Shown here: one piece after another, positions 8,211-36,004 of the stretch
Layout: every line of letters begins with the position of its first letter
Numbering within the stretch: the stretch's first letter is position 1
Source: Parafrankia discariae
Lineage (GTDB): Bacteria; Actinomycetota; Actinomycetes; Frankiales; Frankiaceae
Direction of reading: 5' to 3'
DNA length: 64,000 nt
Assembly (NCBI RefSeq): GCF_000373365.1
Contig: NZ_KB891103.1
Coordinates: forward strand, 367,474 to 431,473
Notes under the pieces: model-generated
Told to the model about the DNA's origin: nothing
The model's database searches: none
What the model saw: the letters and a program-made list of their open reading frames with translations, nothing else
Translations under genes and position numbers: made by a program

Positions 8211-9343
8211 CGCCAGGCACCGTCCAGTTCCATTCCGTGAACGACGGCACGGAATGCCGAGATGACATGTTCGGTCTCGGCGTCGGTCATGTCGGAATGC
8301 AGGGGCAGGCACACGTGCCGCGCGCAGATGTCCTCGGCGACCGGAAGCTGGACCCGCGCATACCGCTCGAACACCGGCTGCTGGTGCAGCGGGGCTTCGT
8401 ACACCTCACCCGCCATGGAGACACCGTGGCCCTCCCGGAGCTCCTTCTTCACCTGTGCCCGGTCCACACCCCGGGAAAGGAGAACCGGGTACTTGTAGTA
8501 GTTGGTGACGCCGTCCTGGACCGCCAGCGGCCGTTCCACGCCCAGTTCGTCGATCGCCTGGTCGTAACGGGCCGCGACACGACGGCGGCGGGCCAGGAAG
8601 TCGTCGAGGTGGCGCAGGTGGGCGCGGCCGGTCGCCGCGTGCACCTCGCTCATCCGCCAGGCGTATCCCTCACGGATGTGAATGTTACCGAGGAATCCCG
8701 CCTTGCCCTGGTCGCGGTAGAGGAGGGCTTCGTCGCGCAGCCGGTCGTCCGAGGTGACGACCATTCCACCCTCACCGCACGTGATCAGCTTGGTCGGGTA
8801 GAAGGAGAACGACCCCGCCACCCCGAAGGAACCGGCGTGCCGGCCGGCGAGGCTTGATCCGTGCGCGTGGGCGGCGTCCTCGACGAGCACGATGCCCCGT
8901 TCGTCGAGCAGGCCGCGCAACTCGTCGATGTCCGGCGGGATCATGCCGCCGATATGCACGACGACAACGGCTTTCGTCCGCGGGGTGACGGCCGCGGCGA
9001 CGGTCTCCGGGCTGAGCGCGAAGGTGTCCGCGCTCACATCCGCGAAGACCGGCGTCCCGCCGGCACGCAGAACCGCGAACGCGGTAGCGGCAAAGGTGTT
9101 GGTGGGCACGACGACGTCGAATCCGCCTACGTCGATGCTTCTCAGGATGATCTCGAGGGCGGCCGTTCCGCTGTTCACGGCGACGGCATGCCGCGCGCCG
9201 TGAGCGGCCGCGAACGCCGCCTCGAATTCCTGGGTGTGCACACCGAGAGTCAGGGCACCGGTCGAGAGGACCTCGGCCGCGACCGACGCGACCTCCGCGC
9301 GGTCTTCTGGCGAGAACACGATGCGCGCCGCGGGGACCTGCAC
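8207..9343 (-). CDS. DegT/DnrJ/EryC1/StrS sugar aminotransferase
   Basis: A 378-residue PLP-dependent aminotransferase that installs an amino group on a keto nucleotide sugar. Visible signatures are NSGTAALEIIL (cofactor phosphate binding), VEDAAHAHGSS (Asp156 binds the PLP ring nitrogen) and SFYPTKLITCGEGG with the Schiff-base Lys185. Its length is normal for the family. The GTG start at 9343 has a GGGGGG ribosome site 8 nt away. It is the first gene of the operon with the epimerase and glycosyltransferase, which implies that an amino sugar is made and transferred. A route to a secreted glycolipid or glycan is likely; the exact sugar is unknown. Confidence 0.9.
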   Translation of the reverse strand: MQVPAARIVFSPEDRAEVASVAAEVLSTGALTLGVHTQEFEAAFAAAHGARHAVAVNSGTAALEIILRSIDVGGFDVVVPTNTFAATAFAVLRAGGTPVFADVSADTFALSPETVAAAVTPRTKAVVVVHIGGMIPPDIDELRGLLDERGIVLVEDAAHAHGSSLAGRHAGSFGVAGSFSFYPTKLITCGEGGMVVTSDDRLRDEALLYRDQGKAGFLGNIHIREGYAWRMSEVHAATGRAHLRHLDDFLARRRRVAARYDQAIDELGVERPLAVQDGVTNYYKYPVLLSRGVDRAQVKKELREGHGVSMAGEVYEAPLHQQPVFERYARVQLPVAEDICARHVCLPLHSDMTDAETEHVISAFRAVVHGMELDGAWR

Positions 9344-10166
9344 CAGTTCAACCCCCCTAGGTCAACGAGCCTATTAGCTGTAGTCGGTCGCGCACGCAGC
9401 GCGAGCAGCTTCGAACGCTACCGGCTCGCCCCCGGGCCGGCTCGCAACATCGCGAAACCTGAACATCCGACTGGTCGAAACCAAAGGTCCGGTCCGCCCA
9501 GATCGCGTTGATTTGCACCGGACCCTGCCGTTGGCAGGCTACAGACCCCCGGCGGGACCTCGGTCGTTGCTGCCGCGTCGACGCCGCGACAACCCGGTCG
9601 ACACATCACCGCACGCCTTTTTCCTTCACCTGATCTCCACCACAACGTAACTGTTCACAGTTTTTGCGCGACGTACCGCAACCGATGCCGGACGATTGCT
9701 ACCCATCAGAATCGGCTGGGTTCGTGTTGTCATCACCAGGATGGGCGCGGATCACCAGATGGGTAGGCCCGATCGGTGTCAAACATCCGACGGCACGACA
9801 ACCCATCCGGACACTGACCCACCGAACCGACACCTGCCGGACGAACACTGGCCGAACAGGGACGCTCCGAACGGGCACCCGTCGCCGGCCCGCACCTCGA
9901 CGACGGCACCGCGCGCTCCGGACCACGCCCGGCGCGGCGCACACGAGTGTGGGAGAAGGCCCGTCGACAGGTTCCATCGGCATGCCACCGACATTCGACA
10001 CGGGAGAAGAAGAAGTCCCGGCGGCCGCGCGGCTCCTCGCGTACGGGGGGAACGCAGGGAGTACACGGAGCTCGCCGGGACGTCTGTCCAGCTTACGACC
10101 CCCAGATGTCGGACGCGACAGGACTAAAGTCCCGAGCCTGGTCCGACCCACGGTCTGGCGGCGGGC
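9344..10166. other. long intergenic region with degenerate repeats
   Basis: This stretch lies upstream of the aminotransferase operon and downstream of the phosphoesterase. It should hold the operon promoter, but I cannot point to convincing -35/-10 boxes. Around 9822-9890 runs of about 15 nt related to CCGAACAGGGACGCT repeat imperfectly. Open frames here read as low-complexity Arg/Thr-rich peptides and are not supported as genes. Confidence 0.5.
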
Positions 10167-10820
10167 TCACGCCTCCTCGAAGACGACCTCACCACGGTCC
10201 GCGTCGAAGAACAGCCAGTTGGACGGCCGCCCGATCGCCGGGCCCACGTTCACCACCACGGTGACCGGATCGGGCCCCGCGGGCCGTACCGGCACCGGCA
10301 CCCCGGAGACCACCGGGACGGACCGGACCGCCCCGGACCGCCCGCTCCGGCGGATCTCGAAGACGGCCCGGCGGTGGGTGTGCCCCACCAGCACCAGCGG
10401 GACGGCCGGCACGTCGCGGACGCGGGGGACGAACGAGCCCGAGCCCGGATCGACATCCCAGCCGATCTGGTGGCCGTGCATCCCCACCGCGCAGTCCACA
10501 TGGGTCATCGACACACCGGACAGCAGGGGGGCCAGCAGCTCCGGCACCTGCTCCGGAGCGAGCAGGTCCCGGATGCGTTCCTCCTGGTTGCCCAGGATCC
10601 GCCGCAGGTCGGCGAGCTCGGCCCAGAGTCTGGGGTCGGGCTCGACGACCTCGTCGAGGGACCAGAACCGCCCTGGATCGTGCCGGCGCATGGGCACCTT
10701 GGCCTCGAGGTAGTCACCCAGGCACACCACCTCGTCGACGCCGACCTCGTCGGCGGCGGCCAGGACGCGCCGCAGGGCCTTGCGTTTTCCGTGCAGGTCG
10801 GCCATGACCGCGTACCGCAT
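10167..10820 (-). CDS. calcineurin-like metallophosphoesterase
   Basis: A 217-residue metallophosphoesterase. The metal-binding motifs occur in order: ADLHG (Asp8, His10), GDYLE (Asp36), GNQEE (Asn78) and GHTHR (His147, His149). The usual GNHE motif reads GNQE, so the catalytic histidine is replaced by glutamine; this may lower or change activity. Size and motif order fit the YfcE/MJ0936-type phosphodiesterases. The ATG at 10820 is used. It stands alone on the minus strand, divergent from the Nit1C-type cluster, so no pathway is implied by context. Confidence 0.82.
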   Translation of the reverse strand: MRYAVMADLHGKRKALRRVLAAADEVGVDEVVCLGDYLEAKVPMRRHDPGRFWSLDEVVEPDPRLWAELADLRRILGNQEERIRDLLAPEQVPELLAPLLSGVSMTHVDCAVGMHGHQIGWDVDPGSGSFVPRVRDVPAVPLVLVGHTHRRAVFEIRRSGRSGAVRSVPVVSGVPVPVRPAGPDPVTVVVNVGPAIGRPSNWLFFDADRGEVVFEEA

Positions 10821-25165: not shown

Positions 25166-25565
25166 GGTGTCCCCCCCGAATTCGATCAATCACGGCCCGG
25201 ACCGCCGCCGGGACGGCGTCATCGCGGTTCCGGGCCTCCCCGGCCGGAGCGGCGACGTCGTGGTCCCCGTACAGAACGTGACAGGCCAATCCGAAACACC
25301 ATGACATGGTATGTCGACGGAAGAACACCGTATTGCGCTAAAGAGCCTGGGTGCCGCCGGCCGGGCCGCCCGGCGGGTGTCCCCGGCGGGCACGGCACCC
25401 GGGCGGGCGACCAGCGCCGCGGCGGGGCCGCGCGGGCGTCCGGGCCGGTACCGGGGCTCACCCCGACCGGCACCGGTGATCCGACGAGAGGGATTATCGG
25501 GAGTACCAACCCCCGGGTCCGAACCGTGGGGACGACGAGCACACAGGCAAAGGCGGTTGCGGATC
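25166..25565. other. divergent intergenic region
   Basis: This stretch separates the MEDS gene from tex, which diverge, so it should carry both promoters. A frame in phase with tex is open back to 25311, but it reads as Gly/Arg/Pro-rich and nothing in it resembles the Tex N terminus. I cannot place a definite promoter. Confidence 0.5.
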
Positions 25566-28295
25566 GTGACGACGGTGTCCGTCTCAGAGACGGTGTCTGT
25601 CCAGGCGCGGATCGCCGCGGAGCTGGGCGTGCGCGAGGGGCAGGTGGCCTCGGCGATCGACCTGCTCGACGGCGGGGCGACAGTGCCGTTCATCGCCCGG
25701 TACCGCAAGGAGGTGACCGGCACCCTCGACGACGCCCAGCTGCGGACCCTCGAGGAGCGGCTGCGGTACCTGCGGGAGCTGGCGGAGCGGCGCGCGGCGA
25801 TCCTGGAGTCCATCCGGAGCCAGGGCAAGCTCGACGACGCCCTCGAGGCGCAGATCATGGCCGCCGACACCAAGGCCCGCCTGGAGGACATCTACCTCCC
25901 CTACAAGCCGAAGCGCCGGACGAAGGCGCAGATCGCGCGCGAGGCCGGGCTGGAGCCGCTCGCGGACGCGCTGCTGGCCGACCGCTCGCTCGACCCCCGG
26001 GCGGAGGCGGAGCGTTACGTCGACGCCGAGAAGGGCGTCGCCGACGCCACCGTGGCGCTCGAGGGCGCCCGCGCCATCCTGGTGGAGCGCTTCGCCGAGG
26101 ACGCCGACCTGATCGGCGCGCTGCGCGAGCAGATGTGGTCCCGCGGGTATCTCGTCAGCCGGGTCCGCGAGGGCAAGGAGGCCGACGGCGCGAAGTTCGC
26201 CGACTACTTCGACTTCGCCGAGCCGTTCACGAAGCTGCCGTCCCACCGGATCCTCGCGATGTTCCGCGGGGAGAAGGAGGAGATCCTCGATCTCACCCTG
26301 GAGCCGGACGAGCCCGCCGACCCGGCGGAGCCCCCGGCCCCCGGCCCCACCGACTACGAGCGGCGCATCGCCGAGCGCTTCGACATCGCCGACGCCGGCC
26401 GCCCGGCCGACCGCTGGCTGCTCGACGCGGTGCGCTGGGCCTGGCGGACCCGGGTCCTCGTCCACCTCGGCGTCGACCTCCGCATGCGGCTGTGGACGTC
26501 CGCGGAGGACACCGCCGTACGCGTGTTCGCGGCGAACCTGCGTGACCTGCTGCTCGCCGCCCCCGCCGGGGAGCGGCGCACCATGGGCCTCGACCCGGGG
26601 TTCCGCACCGGCGTCAAGGTGGCGGTGGTCGACGCGACCGGGAAGGCCGTCGCCACCGACACGATCTACCCGCACGTCCCGGCCCGGCGCTGGGACGACT
26701 CCCTGGCCACTCTGGCCCGGCTGGCCGCCGAGCACGGCGTGGAGCTGATCGCCATCGGCAACGGGACGGCCTCCCGGGAGACCGACAAGCTGGCCGACGA
26801 CCTGATCCGCCGGCATCCCGAGCTGAAGCTGACCAAGGTGATGGTGTCCGAGGCCGGTGCCTCGGTGTACTCCGCCTCCGCCTACGCGTCCCAGGAACTG
26901 CCCTCGATGGACGTCTCGCTGCGCGGCGCGGTGTCCATCGCGCGCCGCCTGCAGGACCCGCTCGCCGAGCTCGTCAAGATCGACCCGAAGTCGATCGGGG
27001 TCGGCCAGTACCAGCACGACCTCTCCGAGGCCCGGATGTCGTCCTCCCTGGACGCCGTCGTCGAGGACTGCGTGAACGCGGTCGGCGTGGACGTCAACAC
27101 CGCCTCGGCACCGCTGCTCTCCCGGGTCTCCGGCATCAGCGGCGGGCTGGCCGACAACATCGTCCGCCACCGGGACACCAACGGGCCGTTCCGGTCGCGG
27201 ACCGGCCTGCTGGAGGTGGCCCGGCTGGGCCCGAAGGCGTTCGAGCAGTGCGCCGGCTTCCTGCGGATCACCGGCGGCGACGACCCGCTCGACAGCTCCA
27301 GCGTGCACCCGGAGTCCTACCCGGTCGTCCGGCGGATCCTGACGGTGACCGGTGGCGACCTGCGCGCGCTGATCGGCGATACGAAGACGCTGCGCTCGCT
27401 GAAGCCCACCGAGTTCGTCGACGACACGGTCGGCCTGCCGACGGTGACCGACATCCTCGCCGAGCTGGAGAAGCCCGGCCGCGACCCGCGGCCGGCGTTC
27501 AAGACCGCCGAGTTCACCGAGGGCGTCGAGACCCTCGCCGACCTGGTGCCGGGGATGGTCCTCGAGGGTGTGGTGACCAACGTCGCCGCCTTCGGCGCCT
27601 TCGTCGACATCGGCGTGCACCAGGACGGCCTCGTCCATGTCTCGGCGATGTCGAAGAACTTCGTCAGCGACCCCCGCGAGGTCGCCAAGCCCGGGGACAT
27701 CGTGCGGGTGAAGGTCCTCGACGTCGACATCCCGCGCAAGCGCATCTCGCTCACCCTGCGCCTGGACGACGAGCCGGGCGCGGCGGACGCCGGCGGCGGG
27801 CAGAGCGGTCAGGGCGGTGAGCGGCGCGCGGGCCGCGGTGGCCGCGGTGGGCAGATCCGCGGTGGCGCCGGTGGCGCCGGCCGGAGCCAGGAGCGTGACG
27901 GGGGGCCGCCCGCCGACCAGCAGGGCGGCCGGCAGGCGGCGGCGGCCGGCGGCGGGCAGCCGGGTGGCGGCCAGCCCGGAGGCGGGCGTGGCGGTCCGGG
28001 TCAGCGTGGCGGCCCCGGCCAGCGGGGTGGTCCGGGCCAGCGCGGTGGCGGTGGCGCGGGTCAGCGCGGCGGTGCCGGTGGCGCGGGTGGCGGTCAGCGC
28101 GGTGGCGGTGCTGGCGGTGGCGGTGCTGGCGGTGGCGGTGGCGGTGGCCAGCGCGGTGCGGGCCACCGTGGCGGGCGGACCGACGGGGCCATCGCCGACG
28201 CGCTGCGCCGCGCCGGTCTGGTCACCGGCGACGAGGTCACCCTCAGCGGCAACCAGGACGACGCGCGCGACAGCCGCCGTCGCGGGCGCCGCTAG
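25566..28295 (+). CDS. tex: Tex-family transcription accessory protein with RGG tail
   Basis: A 909-residue Tex protein. In order: the N-terminal Tex helical domain (VSVQARIAAELGVREGQVAS then IDLLDGGATVPFIARYRKEV), a YqgF/RuvC-like domain from about residue 339 (MGLDPGFRTGVKVAVVD), helix-hairpin-helix repeats (about 500-570), and an S1 RNA-binding domain from about residue 664 (LEGVVTNVAAFGAFVDIGVH). Tex binds RNA and influences transcription and stress survival. The GTG at 25566 fits the family N terminus. Unusually, about 170 residues follow S1: a Gly/Gln/Arg-rich tail with repeated GPGQRGG and AGGGGAGGGG units, then a short conserved-looking end (IADALRRAGLVTGDEVTLSG). Confidence 0.95.
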   Translation: MTTVSVSETVSVQARIAAELGVREGQVASAIDLLDGGATVPFIARYRKEVTGTLDDAQLRTLEERLRYLRELAERRAAILESIRSQGKLDDALEAQIMAADTKARLEDIYLPYKPKRRTKAQIAREAGLEPLADALLADRSLDPRAEAERYVDAEKGVADATVALEGARAILVERFAEDADLIGALREQMWSRGYLVSRVREGKEADGAKFADYFDFAEPFTKLPSHRILAMFRGEKEEILDLTLEPDEPADPAEPPAPGPTDYERRIAERFDIADAGRPADRWLLDAVRWAWRTRVLVHLGVDLRMRLWTSAEDTAVRVFAANLRDLLLAAPAGERRTMGLDPGFRTGVKVAVVDATGKAVATDTIYPHVPARRWDDSLATLARLAAEHGVELIAIGNGTASRETDKLADDLIRRHPELKLTKVMVSEAGASVYSASAYASQELPSMDVSLRGAVSIARRLQDPLAELVKIDPKSIGVGQYQHDLSEARMSSSLDAVVEDCVNAVGVDVNTASAPLLSRVSGISGGLADNIVRHRDTNGPFRSRTGLLEVARLGPKAFEQCAGFLRITGGDDPLDSSSVHPESYPVVRRILTVTGGDLRALIGDTKTLRSLKPTEFVDDTVGLPTVTDILAELEKPGRDPRPAFKTAEFTEGVETLADLVPGMVLEGVVTNVAAFGAFVDIGVHQDGLVHVSAMSKNFVSDPREVAKPGDIVRVKVLDVDIPRKRISLTLRLDDEPGAADAGGGQSGQGGERRAGRGGRGGQIRGGAGGAGRSQERDGGPPADQQGGRQAAAAGGGQPGGGQPGGGRGGPGQRGGPGQRGGPGQRGGGGAGQRGGAGGAGGGQRGGGAGGGGAGGGGGGGQRGAGHRGGRTDGAIADALRRAGLVTGDEVTLSGNQDDARDSRRRGRR

Positions 28296-28519: not shown

Positions 28520-29419
28520 TCAGCATGAGCTGGCGGGGCCGGCCTGGATGAACCGGTCGGAGACCACGAAGGTGGCGAAGTCGGCGTACTGGTCGATGGG
28601 GCTGGCCCAGCTCAGGTCATCGCCGCCGAAGAAGGTGGAGAAGAAGACGCCCTCGATGCGCAGCGCCGGCGTGCTGCGGTAGAAAAGACCGCCCTGGTGG
28701 AAGACCTCACGACCGTCGACCCAGACCGTCACCGATCCGTCCGCCGCCTGCGGACTGTTCAGACAAACCCGTTGCTGAATGGCCGCCCACCTCCCCGGGA
28801 CGAATTTCCAGCTCCCCAGGCCAAGCGTCGTACCGTACTCTTTCGAGCGTGGGAGGTAGGCGTACACCTGTCCCTTTCCGCCGGCCCGCCACATGTATCG
28901 CGTCGAGAATCCATTCGTACCGTCCGGGGTGTTTCCACCGGCCACGTGGGTGCCGCCGAAGAATCCCGGAAGCTTGCCACCTCGGGCGAACTGGAAACCC
29001 TCCTGGAACCGGACACGGTAGCTCAGGAAGAGGTCGTCGGCGGGTCCGTCGCGAAGCTGGAGATAGACCTGGGCACCGCCGGAGGGGGCCCCGTCCTGTT
29101 CCACGGAGAGCTGGCTGGCCGAACCCGCCGGATAGCTGACCCGGATGTGTTTCCAGCCGCAGCCCGCCTCCGGCCGCTCCACGGTGACGTCGTCCAGGCC
29201 GAAGGCACCCCGCCGGCGCATGATCAGCTCGTCACCGAAGAAGCTCTGCAGCCGTGGGGGCATCGGCGGTGTCGCCGGGGCACTCAGCCCGTTCGGCTCG
29301 GGCACTTCGGGCTCCGGCCGGTGCTCGTCCGGCCCGGTGGTGCAGCCCGCGGCACCCACGGCGCCCGCGGCGCCGAGCAACGCCGTCAGAATCGCTCCTC
29401 TTCGCGACAGTACGGTCAT
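28520..29419 (-). CDS. polysaccharide lyase (PL14-like) lipoprotein
   Basis: A 299-residue exported protein. The N terminus has a positively charged start, a hydrophobic stretch and AAGAVGAAGC, a probable lipobox, so it is likely lipid-anchored outside the cell. The body matches family-14 polysaccharide lyases (alginate or glucuronan lyases): GGKLPGFFGGTHVAGGNTPD, then GFSTRYMWRAGGKGQVYAYL, a GLGSWKFVPGRWAAIQQRVC block and FFSTFFGGDDLSWASPIDQY. It would cleave uronic-acid polymers by beta-elimination. It lies 349 nt downstream of the acyltransferase on the same strand, as the last gene of the polyuronate locus, and could trim or release the polymer, as AlgL does in alginate producers. Confidence 0.85.
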   Translation of the reverse strand: MTVLSRRGAILTALLGAAGAVGAAGCTTGPDEHRPEPEVPEPNGLSAPATPPMPPRLQSFFGDELIMRRRGAFGLDDVTVERPEAGCGWKHIRVSYPAGSASQLSVEQDGAPSGGAQVYLQLRDGPADDLFLSYRVRFQEGFQFARGGKLPGFFGGTHVAGGNTPDGTNGFSTRYMWRAGGKGQVYAYLPRSKEYGTTLGLGSWKFVPGRWAAIQQRVCLNSPQAADGSVTVWVDGREVFHQGGLFYRSTPALRIEGVFFSTFFGGDDLSWASPIDQYADFATFVVSDRFIQAGPASSC

Positions 29420-29768
29420 CGCGATGCCCCCCGACCCGCATTTCGCCCGCCTGGCCCGCCGCCGACGATTTCACCTGTCGGCGCGCGGCACGATCTCCCG
29501 AAAGCGCGAACCACGAATTCGAATCATCCGCGCCGGCTGGAATTCTAGCCCCGGGCCGGACGGCGCCCGGGCATGACGCCGACCCGGCACGCCGACCGGC
29601 ACGCCGACCGGCGGTGACCCCGGCGGCAGTCCCGGCACCGGCCGGCTTTCTTGCCCTTTAATGTCGCGCTCGCCGTTTCGTGAGCTGATGCGGTCCGATT
29701 CTTTCCCGAAGGGGCGAGCAGAACACGAAAGGGTCAACAGAACGACGGTATCCGGGGTCTTTTTCGGG
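29420..29768. other. spacer between acyltransferase and lyase genes
   Basis: This stretch has no supported gene. It is slightly less GC-rich than its surroundings and probably carries a separate promoter for the lyase. Short direct repeats GGCACGCCGACC occur near 29587-29612. Confidence 0.45.
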
Positions 29769-32072
29769 TCATCCGGCCAGCCGGATCAGTTCCGGGCCCA
29801 GATACGACGCCAGAGTGGTGGAGTAGGTACCGGTGATGTGGCTCTTGTCGTAGTAGACGACCGTGTCGCCGATGATCGGCGGGCACTGTTCCTTCGCGCA
29901 CAGCCACGGCACCGGGTCGACCAGCATCGCGCCACCGTCACGGGCACCGTTGGTCTCGATGGCCCGCTGCGGTTCGGTCAGTTTCGCGTCGGAGACCCGT
30001 ACGACACACCGGCGGATGTTCGACGGATTCCTGGCCAGACAGTCCGGGACGTCGAATCCCGGGTAGGGCGTGTCCGAGATGAACACGACCTTGGCGCCGG
30101 TCGAGCGCAGCGTGCGCACGAGGCTCGCCATCCCGCCGGCGCCCACCCGGATGGCCTCGGTGCGCGCCTCGGAACCGACGATGACCAGATCCGGGTGGAG
30201 CGCGCCGATCCTGGCGAGGACCTCCGCCCGCCAGGTGTTGCACTCGGTGTAGACCCGTTTCAGGGTTTCCAGCACGAAGTCCTGGTAGTCGGCCGGTGGG
30301 CAGCCGCCCTTCGTGTAGGGGATCAGCCGCCAGCCGCGCTCGCGGCTGACCTCGTTCATCGCGTTGAACCACTGGTTCGCGTGCGAGTCGCCGTAGAGGA
30401 CGACCGTCCGGTGGCCGTTCGGGTCCCCGTAGACGCAGTCGGTGGGCGTGCTGGCGGTGATCGACGCGTAACACCTGTTCGCCTTGTAGTCGAACGGGAC
30501 CTGTTCCAGCGACGGCCGCAGCCCCGCCGGCAGCCCCGGCAGATCCAGCGACCGCTCGATCACCCGGGACAGGGCGGTGGACGCCCCCGCCGCCCCCACT
30601 GTTCCCTCGACGCCAGCCACTCCGGCGGCACCCGCCACTCCGGCGGCACCCGCCACTCCGGCGCCACCCGCCACTCCGGCGCCACCCGCCACTCCGGCGC
30701 CACCCGCCACTCCGGCGCCACCCGGTCCTCCCGCCGGGCCGGCCGCCAGGCCGGGGGCCGGCGTCCCACCGCCGGTGGTGGGGATGGCCGCGACCTGGCC
30801 CACGGCGAGCGCCACCGCCACCGCGGTGCCGGCCAGGCATCCACCGAGGCCGAGACCGACCGCCGGCCGGCGGACCAGCACCGCCCGGGTCCGGACCGGG
30901 TTCTCGACCGCGTGGTAGGTGACGGCGGCCAGGACCAGCGAGCCCAGGACGGCGGCGACCTTCCCGGCCGTCCCGAGAGGTGCCCCGGCGGCCTCCGGCC
31001 AGAGCACCAGCACCGGCCAGTGCCACAGGTACCACGAGTAGCTGAGGCGGCCCACCACCTGCAGCGGCCACCGCCGCAGCAGCAGCTCGGCACCCCGGCG
31101 TGGCCCGGCGCACCCACCGGCGATCACGAACGCCGAGCCCGCGACCGGCAGCAGCGCCGCCAGCCCCGGGTACTGCGTGCTCTCGTCGAACCGCGCCGCG
31201 GCGATCAGGATCCCCAGCAGGCCCAGCCAGCTCAGCTGGGACGACAGCGCGCGGGGCATCCGGGCGAACGCGGGCGCGCCGAGCGCGACCAGCGCCCCCG
31301 CCGCCAGCTCCCACGCACGGGTGTGGCTCCCGAAGTAGGCCCACGGCGCCGACCGCGGCGTGAGCAGCACGCTGAGGGCCAGCGAGCCGCCGAACACCGC
31401 GACGAGCACGACGAACACCCGCCCCGTGCGGACCGGTCCGGTGCCGGCCGGTCCGGTGCCGGCCGGTCCGGTCCCGGCCGGTCCGGTCCCGGCCGGTGCG
31501 GTCCCGGCTGGCCCGGTGCGGACCGCTCCGCCGCGGCCCCGGTGCGAGCCTCCGGCGATCACCGTGGTGACGACCACCAGCACCAGCGGCCACAGGGCGT
31601 AGAACTGCTCCTCGACGGCGAGCGACCAGAAGTGCTGGAACGGGGACGGCGGACCGTCCGCCCGCAGGTAGTCCGTCCCGGCCTGGGCGAGCCGGATGTT
31701 GATCGCCGACACGGCGGAGAACGCGGCGTCCACGCTGATCGAGTGCAGGCGCAGCGGTGACGCCCACCGCCAGGCGGCCACCATCGTCGCGACGATGACC
31801 ACCGTCGCCACCGGGATGATCCGCCGCGCCCGCCGGGCGTAGAAGCCCCGCAGCGAGATCCGCCCGCTGGCGGCCCGTTCGGCGAGCAGCTGCCTGGTGA
31901 TGAGGAAGCCCGAGATCACGAAGAAGACATCCACGCCGACGAACCCGCCGGCGACGGCGAGCCCGGAGTGGCCGAGCACGACCAGGGCCACCGCGACCGC
32001 GCGCAGCCCCTCGATGTCCGGCCGGAATTTCCTGAGCCGGGCGTCCCCGCCGGCCACCTCAGACTCCGGCAC
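29769..32072 (-). CDS. OafA/YrhL-type O-acyltransferase with SGNH domain
   Basis: A 767-residue integral membrane protein. The N-terminal acyltransferase-3 domain (PDIEGLRAVAVALVVLGHSG, FVGVDVFFVISGFLITRQLL, FYARRARRIIPVATVVIVAT, HFWSLAVEEQFYALWPLVLV) has about 10 membrane segments. The periplasmic SGNH-like domain begins around VVLYGDSHANQWFNAMNEVS. Such enzymes O-acetylate exported glycans. Two low-complexity linkers, one of repeated AGTGP units and one of repeated GVAGGA units, come from tandem DNA repeats. The GTG start lies 14 nt inside the upstream epimerase-like gene. In this locus it is the natural candidate for acetylating the polymer, the job done by AlgI/J/F in alginate producers. 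Confidence 0.9.
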   Translation of the reverse strand: MPESEVAGGDARLRKFRPDIEGLRAVAVALVVLGHSGLAVAGGFVGVDVFFVISGFLITRQLLAERAASGRISLRGFYARRARRIIPVATVVIVATMVAAWRWASPLRLHSISVDAAFSAVSAINIRLAQAGTDYLRADGPPSPFQHFWSLAVEEQFYALWPLVLVVVTTVIAGGSHRGRGGAVRTGPAGTAPAGTGPAGTGPAGTGPAGTGPVRTGRVFVVLVAVFGGSLALSVLLTPRSAPWAYFGSHTRAWELAAGALVALGAPAFARMPRALSSQLSWLGLLGILIAAARFDESTQYPGLAALLPVAGSAFVIAGGCAGPRRGAELLLRRWPLQVVGRLSYSWYLWHWPVLVLWPEAAGAPLGTAGKVAAVLGSLVLAAVTYHAVENPVRTRAVLVRRPAVGLGLGGCLAGTAVAVALAVGQVAAIPTTGGGTPAPGLAAGPAGGPGGAGVAGGAGVAGGAGVAGGAGVAGAAGVAGAAGVAGVEGTVGAAGASTALSRVIERSLDLPGLPAGLRPSLEQVPFDYKANRCYASITASTPTDCVYGDPNGHRTVVLYGDSHANQWFNAMNEVSRERGWRLIPYTKGGCPPADYQDFVLETLKRVYTECNTWRAEVLARIGALHPDLVIVGSEARTEAIRVGAGGMASLVRTLRSTGAKVVFISDTPYPGFDVPDCLARNPSNIRRCVVRVSDAKLTEPQRAIETNGARDGGAMLVDPVPWLCAKEQCPPIIGDTVVYYDKSHITGTYSTTLASYLGPELIRLAG
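30617..30724. repeat. six 18-nt tandem repeats in acyltransferase gene
   Basis: Six head-to-tail copies of CCACTCCGGCGGCACCCG or a one-base variant. They encode GVAGGA/GVAGAA hexapeptides in the linker between the membrane domain and the SGNH domain. The high identity suggests recent expansion and likely length variation between strains. Confidence 0.92.
31435..31524. repeat. six 15-nt tandem repeats in acyltransferase gene
   Basis: Six copies of GGTCCGGTGCCGGCC or close variants encode AGTGP-type pentapeptides in a loop between two membrane segments. The frame is maintained throughout. Confidence 0.9.
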
Positions 32073-33546
32073 CGAACGCCGGCCGGCCGGTCACCCGCGC
32101 CCGACGCCGACGGGCGAGGCCGGTGACGCCGCTGAGCAGGACCAGCACGAGCGGCACCGACGCCCAGATCCCGACGAGCACCCGGGTGCGCCACTGGTCG
32201 CCGTTGTCGCGCAGCGTGTTCCCGTCGAGATCGGTCCCCTGCGCCGCGAGCTGGTTGTCGACGATCGTGTTGCCCCGTACCCGGAGGTTCTCCGCGCCGC
32301 CGCGGACGTGCAGGCCCACCCGGTTCCCGGTGACCGTGTTCTGCTCGACGACGTTGTCGGGTGAGGAGGCGAGCACGATGCCGTCACCGCGGTTGCCGCT
32401 GGCGGTGTTGCCGACGATGCGGTTCCCGGTGCTCGAGGCGTCCATCATGATGCCGTTGAGCCGGTTGTCCCGGGTGATGTTGCCGGCCACGACACCGCCG
32501 GTGACGAAGTCGGAGAAGATGATGCCGTGCCGGCCGTTGCGCTCGCTGACGTTGTTGCGCACCGAGATCCCGGTCGAGTGGCTGTGCGGGTCGACGCCGT
32601 AGAGCGTGTTGTCGTGGAACCAGTTCTGTTCGATGCTCACGTCACGGGCATGGTCCGTGTACGTCCCGATGAAGCTGTGGTCGACCTCGGAATGGGTCAT
32701 GCTCCCGGTGGAGCGGTCCGACCAGGAGACACCGTAGGAGCTGTTCCAGTCCCGTCCGAGATAGCTCAGGTGACTGCGGGTGATGGTGAGGGTCGCCGCG
32801 TTCGTGGCGACCACGAACGGCCGCTGCTCGTCGACGCTGCTCCGCTGCGAGTCGTCACTCGTCGTGCTCGGGCGGACGGCGACGCCGTCCAGCGCCAGCC
32901 GCCCGCCGTCCACGCCGAGCAGCACGCCGCGCCGGGCCACGAGCACCAGCTCCGAGACCGGAGCGGTGATCGTCAGTGACGCCCCGGGCGAGACGACGAG
33001 CGCGGCGGACACGGTGACCCGGCCGCGGCCGTCGTATCCGACCCACGAGGGGTCGTCGACCTTCTCGACGACGTCCAGCAGCCCGGTGACCGGCTGCCGC
33101 AGCGGGACGACCCGCTCCGGCCGGCCGCCGGCCAGCAGCGTGACCGCGCCGGGCCCCACCGCGATGCTGCGGATCTCCGGTGCCGGGCTGGTCCGCGCGT
33201 CGACGGTGTTGGGCGGCAGCCCCAGGATCACGTTGCTGAGCGGGTCGTAGGACGGTGTGTAGGCGTGCCGGTGGAAGTACTCGGTGGTCGAGGTGAGCTC
33301 CCGGTAGTCCCGGCCGACGGTCACGCTGAGGGTGACCGCGCTCAGCGCCGTCATCACGGCCAGCAGGAAGTGGACGCCCCGGCGGCGGGACCGCTCGCGC
33401 CGGGCCCGGGCGGCCGCCGTCACCGCGGCCCGCTCGCCCGGCGCCCGCGCCGGCTGCCGCACGGGCACCGCGGTCGGCAGGGTGGCCGTGTTGGCCGTGC
33501 TCGCCGAGCCCATCGAGTAGGGCTGGTCGGTCGGGTGGGTCGTCAT
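32059..33546 (-). CDS. membrane-anchored beta-helix protein, mannuronan C5-epimerase-like
   Basis: A 495-residue protein with a membrane segment at about 58-78, a right-handed parallel beta-helix (about 180-445) and a second membrane segment at about 456-477 before an Arg-rich tail. The repeats have the NNVSERNGRHGIIFSDFVTG style of the AlgG/CASH family. Residues 316-321 read YGVDPH, the catalytic signature of mannuronan C5-epimerases (YG-x-DPH); the next residue is Ser where AlgG has Asp. It would convert residues in an exported polyuronate. Start and stop overlap the neighbouring genes (ATGA with the GT2; 14 nt with the acyltransferase). Substrate specificity is inferred. Confidence 0.8.
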   Translation of the reverse strand: MTTHPTDQPYSMGSASTANTATLPTAVPVRQPARAPGERAAVTAAARARRERSRRRGVHFLLAVMTALSAVTLSVTVGRDYRELTSTTEYFHRHAYTPSYDPLSNVILGLPPNTVDARTSPAPEIRSIAVGPGAVTLLAGGRPERVVPLRQPVTGLLDVVEKVDDPSWVGYDGRGRVTVSAALVVSPGASLTITAPVSELVLVARRGVLLGVDGGRLALDGVAVRPSTTSDDSQRSSVDEQRPFVVATNAATLTITRSHLSYLGRDWNSSYGVSWSDRSTGSMTHSEVDHSFIGTYTDHARDVSIEQNWFHDNTLYGVDPHSHSTGISVRNNVSERNGRHGIIFSDFVTGGVVAGNITRDNRLNGIMMDASSTGNRIVGNTASGNRGDGIVLASSPDNVVEQNTVTGNRVGLHVRGGAENLRVRGNTIVDNQLAAQGTDLDGNTLRDNGDQWRTRVLVGIWASVPLVLVLLSGVTGLARRRRARVTGRPAFGAGV

Positions 33547-34883
33547 CGGTTTCCCTCCCCCGCGACGGACGCCGGCACGCGACCCCCGCCGGCCACCGCG
33601 TCGCCGTGCCGGGTGGCGCCGTCCCCGGTGGTGCCGTCGTCGTCCCGGTCGCGCTCACGCTGGCCGCTGGTGGCCGCGGTCTTGGCGATGACCTCGAAGC
33701 TGCGCGGATTCCCCATGTAGAGCGTCGCGACGAGCGCGACGATCGTGAACGTCGCCGTGACGGGTGCCAGGACCACGGCCGCGAGGCTCTGCAGGACGCG
33801 GTTGGTCCAGAATTTCGCGGTGCTCACCCCGGGCTGGCGCAGGCCGGCGTTGACCCAGCCACTCAGCCCGAAGTTCACCAGCCAGACCGCCAGCGAGCAC
33901 CAGAAGAGCGAATGCGCCCACCCGGCCACCTCGATCGTGTCGGTGAGAATCAGGACGACCGCCGAACCCGACGCGAGGAACGTGAACAGGCTGAGGAAGT
34001 ACCGGATCGCGATCCTGATCGCGGCGCCGAGCGGGAGCACGTCGCGGTTCACGATGGCGTGGATGTTGCCCCACATCCACCGGCGGCGCTGCTTGAAGTA
34101 GGCCTGCCACGTCCACGGTGAGGTGAGCTGGATGTACTCGTGGAAGAAGCCCCAGCGCAGACCGGCCGCCGCCGCGTTGCAGCCGAAGGTGAGATCCTCG
34201 GAGGCGAAGATCCGCCAGTTCCAGGTGACTGTCCGCTCGGTGTGGCCGGTGATGGTGAGGCCCTCCCCGTGGACGAAAAGCGGGCGCCCGAGGATTCCCT
34301 GGAAGGAGGAGCAGTAGGTCATGCAGTTGTGGAACCGCAGGTCGTCGATGTGGCTCAGGATGAAGTGCGCGAACGGCCCGCTGCCGTAGTCGATGCGCGG
34401 GGCCGTCACACCCTGGCAGATGTCGTAGTCGGCCGCGTAGGCGGTCTCGAGGTACTCCCACGTCGGCGACGTGTCGTCATCGAGAAACGTTATCTTCGTG
34501 TCGGCCGTGTCGTAGCCGAGGTGCTGGCGGACGATCCGGCTGAACTCCAGGGCACGGGCCTTGTACTGGGCCACGCAGGTGAAGTCCGTCGGCACCGTGA
34601 TGACCCGGTCCGCCTCGGGGTAGATGTCACCGTTCCCGGGCTCGTTGGTCACCCAGATCTCGTAGTTCATCGTCATCGGGAACGAGCGGATCTCCCGGAT
34701 GATCTCGTTGACGCGGTCCTGTTCCCGGCCGACGGTGGTGATCTGGATGATGTATCGCGAGAAGAGGTCCCGGTTCTGCCGGAAGGTCGTGTGGAACCAC
34801 CACTCGCCCGCGGCGAGGATGAAGATCTCGATCATCGGTCGGAGGAAGGCCACGAGCAGCAGCCAGGGCAGCCAGGTGCTCAT
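33543..34883 (-). CDS. processive GT2 glycosyltransferase, egghead/Alg8-like
   Basis: A 446-residue membrane glycosyltransferase. One hydrophobic segment precedes the catalytic domain and several follow it (about 285-395). The GT2 motifs are present: FLDDDTSP (Asp135-137), ASEDLTFG (Glu229-Asp230) and KQRRRWMWG (QxxRW at 265-269), the set seen in processive polymerases. Stretches such as VAQYKARALEFSRI and TSPWTWQAYFKQRRRWMWGN resemble egghead-type beta-1,4-mannosyltransferases. It should polymerise and extrude a beta-linked glycan, like Alg8 for mannuronan. It is co-translated with the dehydrogenase upstream and the epimerase-like gene downstream. The charged C-terminal tail is low complexity. 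Confidence 0.83.
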   Translation of the reverse strand: MSTWLPWLLLVAFLRPMIEIFILAAGEWWFHTTFRQNRDLFSRYIIQITTVGREQDRVNEIIREIRSFPMTMNYEIWVTNEPGNGDIYPEADRVITVPTDFTCVAQYKARALEFSRIVRQHLGYDTADTKITFLDDDTSPTWEYLETAYAADYDICQGVTAPRIDYGSGPFAHFILSHIDDLRFHNCMTYCSSFQGILGRPLFVHGEGLTITGHTERTVTWNWRIFASEDLTFGCNAAAAGLRWGFFHEYIQLTSPWTWQAYFKQRRRWMWGNIHAIVNRDVLPLGAAIRIAIRYFLSLFTFLASGSAVVLILTDTIEVAGWAHSLFWCSLAVWLVNFGLSGWVNAGLRQPGVSTAKFWTNRVLQSLAAVVLAPVTATFTIVALVATLYMGNPRSFEVIAKTAATSGQRERDRDDDGTTGDGATRHGDAVAGGGRVPASVAGEGNR

Positions 34884-36004
34884 CGGGGTGCGCCTTCCGT
34901 CGCCTCGACGCCGCGGGAGTCGCGCGGCTGCCGCGGAAGCCGGTCAGGCGACCAGAGCGCGCGGGCGGCGGCCAGCCCAGGACCCCGACCCGCGGCACCG
35001 GCACCGGCACCGGCACCGAATCCATCGCCGACGCCGGCGCTGAACCCGTCGCCTACGCGCTCGCCCGTGCCGTCGCCGAATCCGTTACCGGACCTGTCGC
35101 CGAGCGAGTCGACGGCCCCGGCCCGCTCGCCGGTCACGGCGCCGCCGGCGGCGCGGTCGACGAAACGGCTGTTCATCTCGATGACCGACCGCAGGATCGG
35201 CATGTCCACGCCGACACCGGCGGCGAACCCGAGGAAGGCCATGGTGTCCTTCGGCAGGCAGACGCCCCCGTACGGCGCGCCACCTCTGGTCCCGTAGGCC
35301 GGGTTGAAGGACGCCTCGGCTGATCGCGCGACCGTCTCGGCCACCGCCCCGAGGTCGAGGTGCAGGCGCTCCGCGACGACGTGCATCTCGTTCCAGAACG
35401 AGATCTTCGTGGCGTTGAAGATGTTGTGCGCACACTTGACGAACTCGGCGGTCATCGGATCATCAAAGATCCGCATAGTCCCCCCGAACGGCGCGAAAAG
35501 CTCCGCAAGGCGCTCCTGGACCCGCCGGTTACGGGCCCCGACAACGGTCATCCACGGCCAGCGGAAGTCCTCGGCGGCCGACGAGGCGCGCAGAAACTCC
35601 GGATTGCTGGCCAGCAGGAACCCGCTGCCCTGGCGCAGCCCGGACTCCTGCTCGAGCAGCGGGCCGACCAGACCCTCGGTCGTGCCCGGATCGACGGTGC
35701 TCCGGACGACAACGGTGTGCACGGCGGACGTCTCACGGAGCGCGCGGCCGAGGCCGCGGATACCGGCCACGAACGCGGTGAGATCGTAGCGGCTGCCGGC
35801 ATTCGGTGTCGGCAGGGTGAGGAAGACGACGGAGTCGCCCTCCGACCGCAGGTCGATCTCGGGCCGCGCGTCCAGGCCGATCTCGTTCAGGAATGCGATT
35901 CGCTCCGGCGAGACGTCGATGAACGTGACCCGGTGCCCGGCGTCGAGCAGCCCCCTCCCGGTGGCTGTTCCAACGACTCCGGATCCGACGACAAAGATTC
36001 GCAT
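34880..36004 (-). CDS. UDP-glucose/GDP-mannose dehydrogenase lacking third domain
   Basis: A 374-residue nucleotide-sugar dehydrogenase. The NAD motif GSGVVGTATG (7-16), FLTLPTP, VVVRSTVDPGTTEGL, NPEFLRASSAAEDF, EFVKCAHNIFNATKISFWNE (Lys190, Asn194) and GGVCLPKD with the catalytic Cys249 are all intact. Instead of the usual C-terminal UDP/GDP-binding domain, the sequence runs from about residue 285 into a Gly/Asp/Ala-rich repeat tail. A four-electron oxidation to a UDP- or GDP-uronic acid is expected from the family, but loss of the third domain makes substrate binding unclear. The ATG at 36004 has AAGGAG upstream. It is the first gene of the polyuronate operon. Confidence 0.85.
   Translation of the reverse strand: MRIFVVGSGVVGTATGRGLLDAGHRVTFIDVSPERIAFLNEIGLDARPEIDLRSEGDSVVFLTLPTPNAGSRYDLTAFVAGIRGLGRALRETSAVHTVVVRSTVDPGTTEGLVGPLLEQESGLRQGSGFLLASNPEFLRASSAAEDFRWPWMTVVGARNRRVQERLAELFAPFGGTMRIFDDPMTAEFVKCAHNIFNATKISFWNEMHVVAERLHLDLGAVAETVARSAEASFNPAYGTRGGAPYGGVCLPKDTMAFLGFAAGVGVDMPILRSVIEMNSRFVDRAAGGAVTGERAGAVDSLGDRSGNGFGDGTGERVGDGFSAGVGDGFGAGAGAGAAGRGPGLAAARALWSPDRLPRQPRDSRGVEATEGAPR

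Follow-up and report, generated by a model that had tools for sequence, protein, structure and literature searches.

A five-gene operon of Parafrankia discariae as a candidate locus for synthesis of an alginate-type polyuronate

Why would an actinomycete carry, side by side, genes that resemble the alginate genes of Pseudomonas? The question is raised by five adjacent genes of Parafrankia discariae in a 64,000-nucleotide stretch of contig NZ_KB891103.1 (positions 367,474 to 431,473; hereafter the window), which encode a nucleoside diphosphate (NDP)-sugar dehydrogenase, a GT2 glycosyltransferase, an AlgG-like beta-helix protein, an OafA-type acyltransferase fused to an SGNH domain and a lyase of polysaccharide lyase family 14 (PL14). 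Published papers describe bacterial alginate from Pseudomonas and Azotobacter (PMC4444821), find predicted alginate operons to be largely those of Pseudomonas in a survey of 1733 genomes (PMC7112194), and state that an alginate biosynthetic pathway is not known for the Actinomycetota with PL41 lyase genes, mainly Streptomyces (PMC11468063). No report of an actinobacterial or Frankia alginate pathway, or of this locus, was found by title and abstract in the open-access literature. We conclude that the five genes very likely direct the synthesis of a polyuronate that is epimerised, acylated and trimmed by a lyase. To the more specific reading, that the operon yields a C5-epimerised polyuronate, most probably of the alginate type (mannuronate and guluronate), at the surface of a monoderm cell, we give a probability of roughly 0.6.

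What does the window itself contain? The initial annotation of this DNA had described five minus-strand open reading frames (ORFs) from 36004 to 28520, and all five are in place with Pfam families that agree (PF03721 and PF00984 in the dehydrogenase, PF13229 in the beta-helix protein, the others as in Table 1). As it had claimed, the first three genes are coupled by ATGA overlaps, at both the dehydrogenase/GT2 and the GT2/beta-helix junction, and a PL14-like gene follows after 349 nt. By ORF coordinates this distance runs from the end of the OafA gene to the PL14 start, and the beta-helix and OafA ORFs overlap by 14 nt. Gene content, translational coupling, conservation, family membership and most active-site residues are observed features of the locus.

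How widely is the arrangement kept? The genome sets were drawn samples and the distant-profile searches covered Actinomycetota; because the samples were drawn and few candidates were scored per genome in the large searches (six in the 296-genome GT2 search, four in the 396-genome GT2 and beta-helix searches), the absences given here are lower bounds. The GT2, the short dehydrogenase and a strong PL14 match (185-203 bits), each searched separately, were found in one identical set of 10 genomes among 58 relatives: all six genomes of the window's genus and four of the eight of a second genus. The survey of gene order that the initial annotation had proposed shows the five genes in order on one contig in nine of these ten GT2-bearing genomes (the window, L002, L003, L004, L007, L028, L034, L035 and L036); in the tenth, G025, the operon is divided over two contigs, L033 and L064. 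GT2 matches and AlgG-like matches fall in the same seven genomes of a class sample of 296. The co-occurrence of the operon genes exceeds chance. Across the phylum, 396 sampled genomes gave four GT2 matches at 1e-8, the window's genome included, with G456 and G480 at about 1e-100 and G356 weak at 5e-10. Sampling the classes to which G456 and G480 belong (247 and 27 genomes) returned these two again and no further GT2 case, and no GT2 relative was found in plasmid records at 1e-10. The unit is rare and scattered; named carriers of GT2 relatives are Parafrankia soli, P. colletiae, Parafrankia sp. EUN1f, Frankia nepalensis and two other Frankia strains.

Is the beta-helix protein an epimerase? AlgG is its best match by profile (NF038177, among curated NCBIfam models), by sequence in the PDB (E 3.8e-25) and by fold, where a structure model of mean pLDDT 71.9 matched 4nk6 with Z 36.7, rmsd 2.5, 316 aligned residues and 26% identity; other alginate epimerases followed at Z of about 29 and the first other protein at Z 27.9. 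A match to non-epimerase CASH proteins alone, which the initial annotation had named as evidence that would count against it, is not what emerged. The YGVDPH that it had read lies at residues 316-321, and Tyr316, Asp319 and His321 of YGxDPH are present, as in the active-site stretch of Tyr, Asp and His described for AlgG (PMC4444821) and AlgE (PMC8824271). Fold and these three residues are common to AlgG, AlgE and the window protein, whereas the latter is predicted to be anchored in the membrane at both ends. Since Asp178 of AlgE is tied to calcium (PMC8824271), a calcium-assisted enzyme is possible by analogy.

The processive GT2 motifs of the initial annotation (DDD/ED/QRRRW) hold as LDDD, SED and QRRRW, invariant in all seven Frankiaceae sequences, and the LDDD, SED and QR-R-W positions are retained in the GT2s of two distant loci, L040 (44% identical) and L041 (40%). 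No NCBIfam model matched the GT2 at 0.1, and no solved relative was found at E 1 in a PDB profile search; a DnaJ-like PDB match (E 0.035) was set aside as weak and apparently spurious. The predicted structure is a poor model (mean pLDDT 41.6).

Why is the dehydrogenase so short? Its length, which the initial annotation had passed over, is not the normal one: the protein ends after domain 2, at about residue 285, and continues as a variable low-complexity tail, with no Pfam match to PF03720. It has the NAD domain, the central domain and the catalytic Cys and Lys in common with GDP-mannose dehydrogenase (GMD, 1mfz) and UDP-glucose dehydrogenase (UGDH, 3vtf) but lacks their third domain, and in unrooted trees with 12 full-length sequences, 8 of them from Frankiaceae clusters, short and full-length forms separate with 98 and 99% ultrafast bootstrap. 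Frankiaceae homologues show the same early end and variable tail, and PF03720 is also missing from the dehydrogenases of L040 (310 aa), L041 (287 aa), L072 (312 aa), L073 (340 aa) and L074 (307 aa); it occurs at three other places in the window's own genome. The catalytic Cys249, Lys190 and Asn194 are invariant in all ten short dehydrogenases compared.

The PL14 protein scores 190.6 bits against PF21294 (gathering cut-off 27), and its PDB matches rank AkAly30 (5gmt, E 2e-26) above other alginate lyases (6kcw, 9e-11) and these above vAL-1 (1e-6). Lys149, Tyr186 and Tyr188 are invariant in six of six homologues and align with what we take to be the active residues of AkAly30; a lyase devoid of PL14 catalytic residues, which the initial annotation had listed as a possible refutation, is not what the alignment gives. 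With AkAly30 and vAL-1 (3a0n) the protein shares PF21294 and the aligned Lys and Tyr, while it differs from them in being bacterial and encoded inside a synthesis operon. PL14 alone as proof of mannuronan was considered and dropped, since PL14-like genes also cluster with genes of the UGDH kind. Both domains of the OafA-SGNH protein score above their Pfam cut-offs (Acyl_transf_3 94.3 bits, SGNH 114.4 bits), and its sole NCBIfam match is SucT NF058601 at 215 bits, far under the cut-off of 1275. These two proteins bear out the earlier view that acetylation and cleavage fall to families other than those of Pseudomonas. Between the acyltransferase and SGNH domains lies a collagen-like Gly-rich linker (30579-30743, minus strand; Pfam Collagen, below cut-off).

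A PL7 lyase gene (PF08787) adjoins the operon in G010, G025 and G028, and at L034 and L035 a second AlgG-like gene, with the motif YGLDGHD, follows it. The PL7 of L034 is closest to AlgAT5 (8e-61) and the polyguluronate lyase 1uai (9e-55), with glucuronan lyase at 1e-5, and it carries QIH, which is tied, with stated exceptions, to activity on polyguluronate (polyG) or mixed mannuronate-guluronate (MG) chains (PMC8618178). This PL7 is the strongest pointer to guluronate. In the window's genome, a PL7-family lyase is encoded only on another contig (L054; G000:C116:15585-16208, minus strand), where the surroundings were not recognised as those of the operon.

How might these parts work together? 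From the genes we infer each reaction, the sugar and the export. The short dehydrogenase would oxidise an NDP-hexose, with GDP-mannose favoured, to the uronate; because it has no nucleotide-gripping domain, we propose that it would work together with the GT2, the latter holding the nucleotide. The GT2 would polymerise the uronate and extrude the chain through a membrane channel of its own. As the chain emerges, the anchored AlgG-like protein would carry out C5 epimerisation on it, the OafA-SGNH protein would acylate it, and the exported PL14 lyase would trim or free the polymer.

Do related loci follow one plan? A short dehydrogenase is accompanied by a GT2 in every locus seen. L040 and L041 were located via the GT2, and one of the two has an AlgG-like gene: L041 holds a row of short dehydrogenase, GT2, AlgG-like protein and GH113 with both ATGA overlaps retained, and L040 has the first two of these genes and no beta-helix gene. 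The GH113 (mannanase family) protein, at L041:12398-13459 on the plus strand, directly follows the AlgG-like gene. The beta-helix profile matched five of the 396 phylum genomes, three of them new (L072, L073 and L074), and at each of these three a short dehydrogenase and a GT2 are encoded no more than about 7 kb away; the beta-helix protein is there by construction, because these loci were located through its profile, and the dehydrogenases and GT2s are not. Their GT2s belong to a different class, resembling NodC or hyaluronan synthase, and were not found by the window's GT2 profile. At L074, beside the short dehydrogenase, a single 814-aa frame (8320-10764, minus strand) joins an AlgG-like half (4nk6, E 1e-16) to a GT2 half (hyaluronan synthase, E 1e-23). 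A 970-aa ORF at L072 was rejected as a second such GT2-epimerase fusion; by eye, its GT2 part seems to enter another reading frame. L073 encodes a beta-helix protein without YGxDPH, as well as a protein that shares 50% identity with the PL14 of the window. Across the five short-dehydrogenase loci outside Frankiaceae, a GT2 is present in five, an AlgG-like protein in four and the motif in three. Since related actinomycetotal loci use another GT2 class, the set is no single invariable five-gene pathway, and overall the interpretation in the initial annotation is partly supported.

A second PL14 cluster of the Frankiaceae, which we call system B, can be set against the window's operon as a contrast from within the same family. 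Weaker PL14 matches (83-127 bits) occur in 14 of the 58 genomes, the window's own included (C129), and all seven neighbourhoods examined among the 14 have a UGDH-like gene within about 7 kb of the weak PL14 (L055, which is G000 C129, and L058-L063). Dehydrogenase, GT2, beta-helix and PL14 roles are clustered as in the operon. System B differs in its dehydrogenase, with PF03720 confirmed in G000 C129 and L060, in an unrelated GT2 class, NodC-like in both cases typed (L059 and L060), in the absence of YGxDPH from seven of seven beta-helix proteins, and in its lower PL14 scores; the L060 PL14 matches AkAly30 only at 7e-4. System B is a candidate for making another uronate polymer. At L075:1518-5599 (minus strand), in G315, a third beta-helix match lies near a 446-aa dehydrogenase-like ORF, perhaps as part of another cluster like system B.

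Which uronate, then, does the operon polymerise? UDP-glucose might be oxidised instead, the GT2 making a glucuronate chain that the beta-helix protein converts to iduronate and PL14 cuts; we regard this glucuronan-type course as unlikely, if worth serious weighing. System B is its main support, because the GT2s of L072-L074, which stand beside short dehydrogenases, are 40-46% identical to the system B GT2. The window's short dehydrogenase is also pairwise slightly nearer to UGDH 3vtf (identity 0.39-0.41) than to GMD (0.36), and PL14 includes vAL-1, listed as EC 4.2.2.14 (PMC8618178). Yet the dehydrogenase profile prefers GMD by 24 bits (203.5 against 179.5 for the best UGDH), and the RIG stretch of UGDH is missing from the short forms, most of which have a GMD-type Arg there (not L040). 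The beta-helix epimerase family was mannuronan-specific where assayed (PMC4444821), the PL7 found beside three of ten operons hits polyguluronate lyases with E values of 1e-54 to 1e-60 (L034 copy) against 1e-5 for glucuronan lyase, and the UGDH cluster of the window's own genome has a motif-less beta-helix protein. The evidence on the dehydrogenase substrate is split between GDP-mannose and UDP-glucose and appears to lean to GDP-mannose; mannuronate over glucuronate is unproved.

The alginate-type reading also draws on the AlgG match of the beta-helix protein, on the shared distribution of GT2, short dehydrogenase and strong PL14, on the fusion at L074, on the ATGA coupling of dehydrogenase, GT2 and beta-helix genes in the distant L041, on the GH113 gene there and on a PL14 nearer to AkAly30 than to vAL-1. 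Several observations weigh against it, besides the pairwise identities, the other GT2 class of L072-L074 and the clustering of PL14-like genes with UGDH-like genes. The beta-helix protein reaches 108.4 bits with the AlgG model, far under the cut-off of 700; Ser322 stands in place of the last Asp of DPHD; and Asp346 aligns at AlgG Arg345, a position anchored by the mutant chain 4nk8; its substitution (D317A in the entry title) falls on the first Asp of the motif. The place of this charge-neutralising Arg of AlgG holds Asp or Glu in the seven Frankiaceae sequences and Lys in L041. The Cys115-Cys124 loop of AkAly30, named for its preference for polymannuronate (polyM) (PMC8618178), is not kept in the window's PL14, and PL7 adjoins no more than three of the ten operons. 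The earlier statement that all five functional classes are present does not hold in that form: the dehydrogenase has no counterpart of the nucleotide-binding domain found in AlgD and UGDH, and Arg345 and the fourth DPHD residue are replaced.

Could the polymer carry no uronate at all? An uncharged or different product, such as a mannan or an amino-sugar chain, with a dehydrogenase that is regulatory or has another substrate and with the beta-helix protein and lyase acting on host or soil uronates, is improbable in our view: the missing nucleotide domain, the replaced Arg345 and the mannanase-family gene of L041 would suit it, but Cys249, Lys190 and Asn194 are kept in all ten short dehydrogenases compared, the dehydrogenase always comes with a GT2 in the loci seen, and an epimerase is fused to a synthase at L074. 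A locus for feeding on alginate or plant uronates, to which PL14 and, at some copies, PL7 might point, is more improbable still, as the operon is headed by a dehydrogenase coupled to a GT2 and Pfam finds no oligo-alginate lyase family, transporter or 4-deoxy-L-erythro-5-hexoseulose uronate (DEH) enzyme among the five genes.

Table 1. Features of the operon in the window and of the lyase region at L034
Feature	Coordinates	Strand	Remarks
NDP-sugar dehydrogenase, short two-domain, 374 aa	34880..36004	-	NAD and central domains, without PF03720
GT2, PF13632, 446 aa	33543..34883	-	LDDD / SED / QRRRW; presumed polymer synthase
AlgG-like right-handed beta-helix protein, 495 aa	32059..33546	-	predicted membrane helices at both ends; presumed C5-epimerase
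Beta-helix active-site motif YGVDPHS (residues 316-322; span residues 316-324)	32575..32601	-	
OafA-type acyltransferase-SGNH fusion, 767 aa	29769..32072	-	PF01757 and PF19040
PL14-family lyase, 299 aa	28520..29419	-	PF21294; export signal by eye, possible Tat-type lipoprotein
PL7 lyase	L034:5222-6115	-	
Second AlgG-like protein, YGLDGHD	L034:3519-4982	+	

Outside the operon, a long plus-strand ORF at 25311-28295 has a Tex-type look by eye and a Gly/Arg-rich tail.

What would such an operon mean for alginate elsewhere? The brown-algal mannuronan synthase is described as unidentified, the algal GT2s as not homologous to Alg8, and the bacterial epimerases closest to the brown-algal ones as actinobacterial (PMC11468063). 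The alginate-specific steps have been suggested to come from an actinobacterial donor (PMC8307928), with no strong support in the case of the dehydrogenase (PMC11468063). A compact actinobacterial unit of dehydrogenase, GT2 and epimerase renders these questions of synthase and donor testable, and among NDP-sugar dehydrogenases a two-domain form linked to a polymer synthase would be out of the ordinary. At its boldest, and as a conjecture that we think improbable, a GDP-mannose dehydrogenase that has lost its nucleotide domain would act while a mannuronan synthase unrelated to Alg8 holds the nucleotide, with the epimerase at the synthase and once fused to it, the whole being a living actinobacterial relative of the pathway that brown algae supposedly acquired.

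How does the operon compare with the alg operon of Pseudomonas and Azotobacter (AlgD, Alg8, Alg44, AlgG, AlgX/I/J/F, AlgL, AlgK and AlgE)? Genes of the Alg44 (PilZ), AlgK and AlgE kinds are absent from its five genes, to which the Pfam search was limited. Both systems cluster the roles of dehydrogenase, GT2 synthase, AlgG-like epimerase, acyltransferase and lyase. They differ in that the dehydrogenase is short here and a full-length AlgD there, the window's GT2 has no detectable NCBIfam or PDB relatives, OafA-SGNH stands for AlgI/J/F/X, and PL14 for the PL5 lyase AlgL. By its families, the locus appears to be built from other stock than that of Pseudomonas; by analogy, it would work like the alginate system yet falls outside the canonical alg system.

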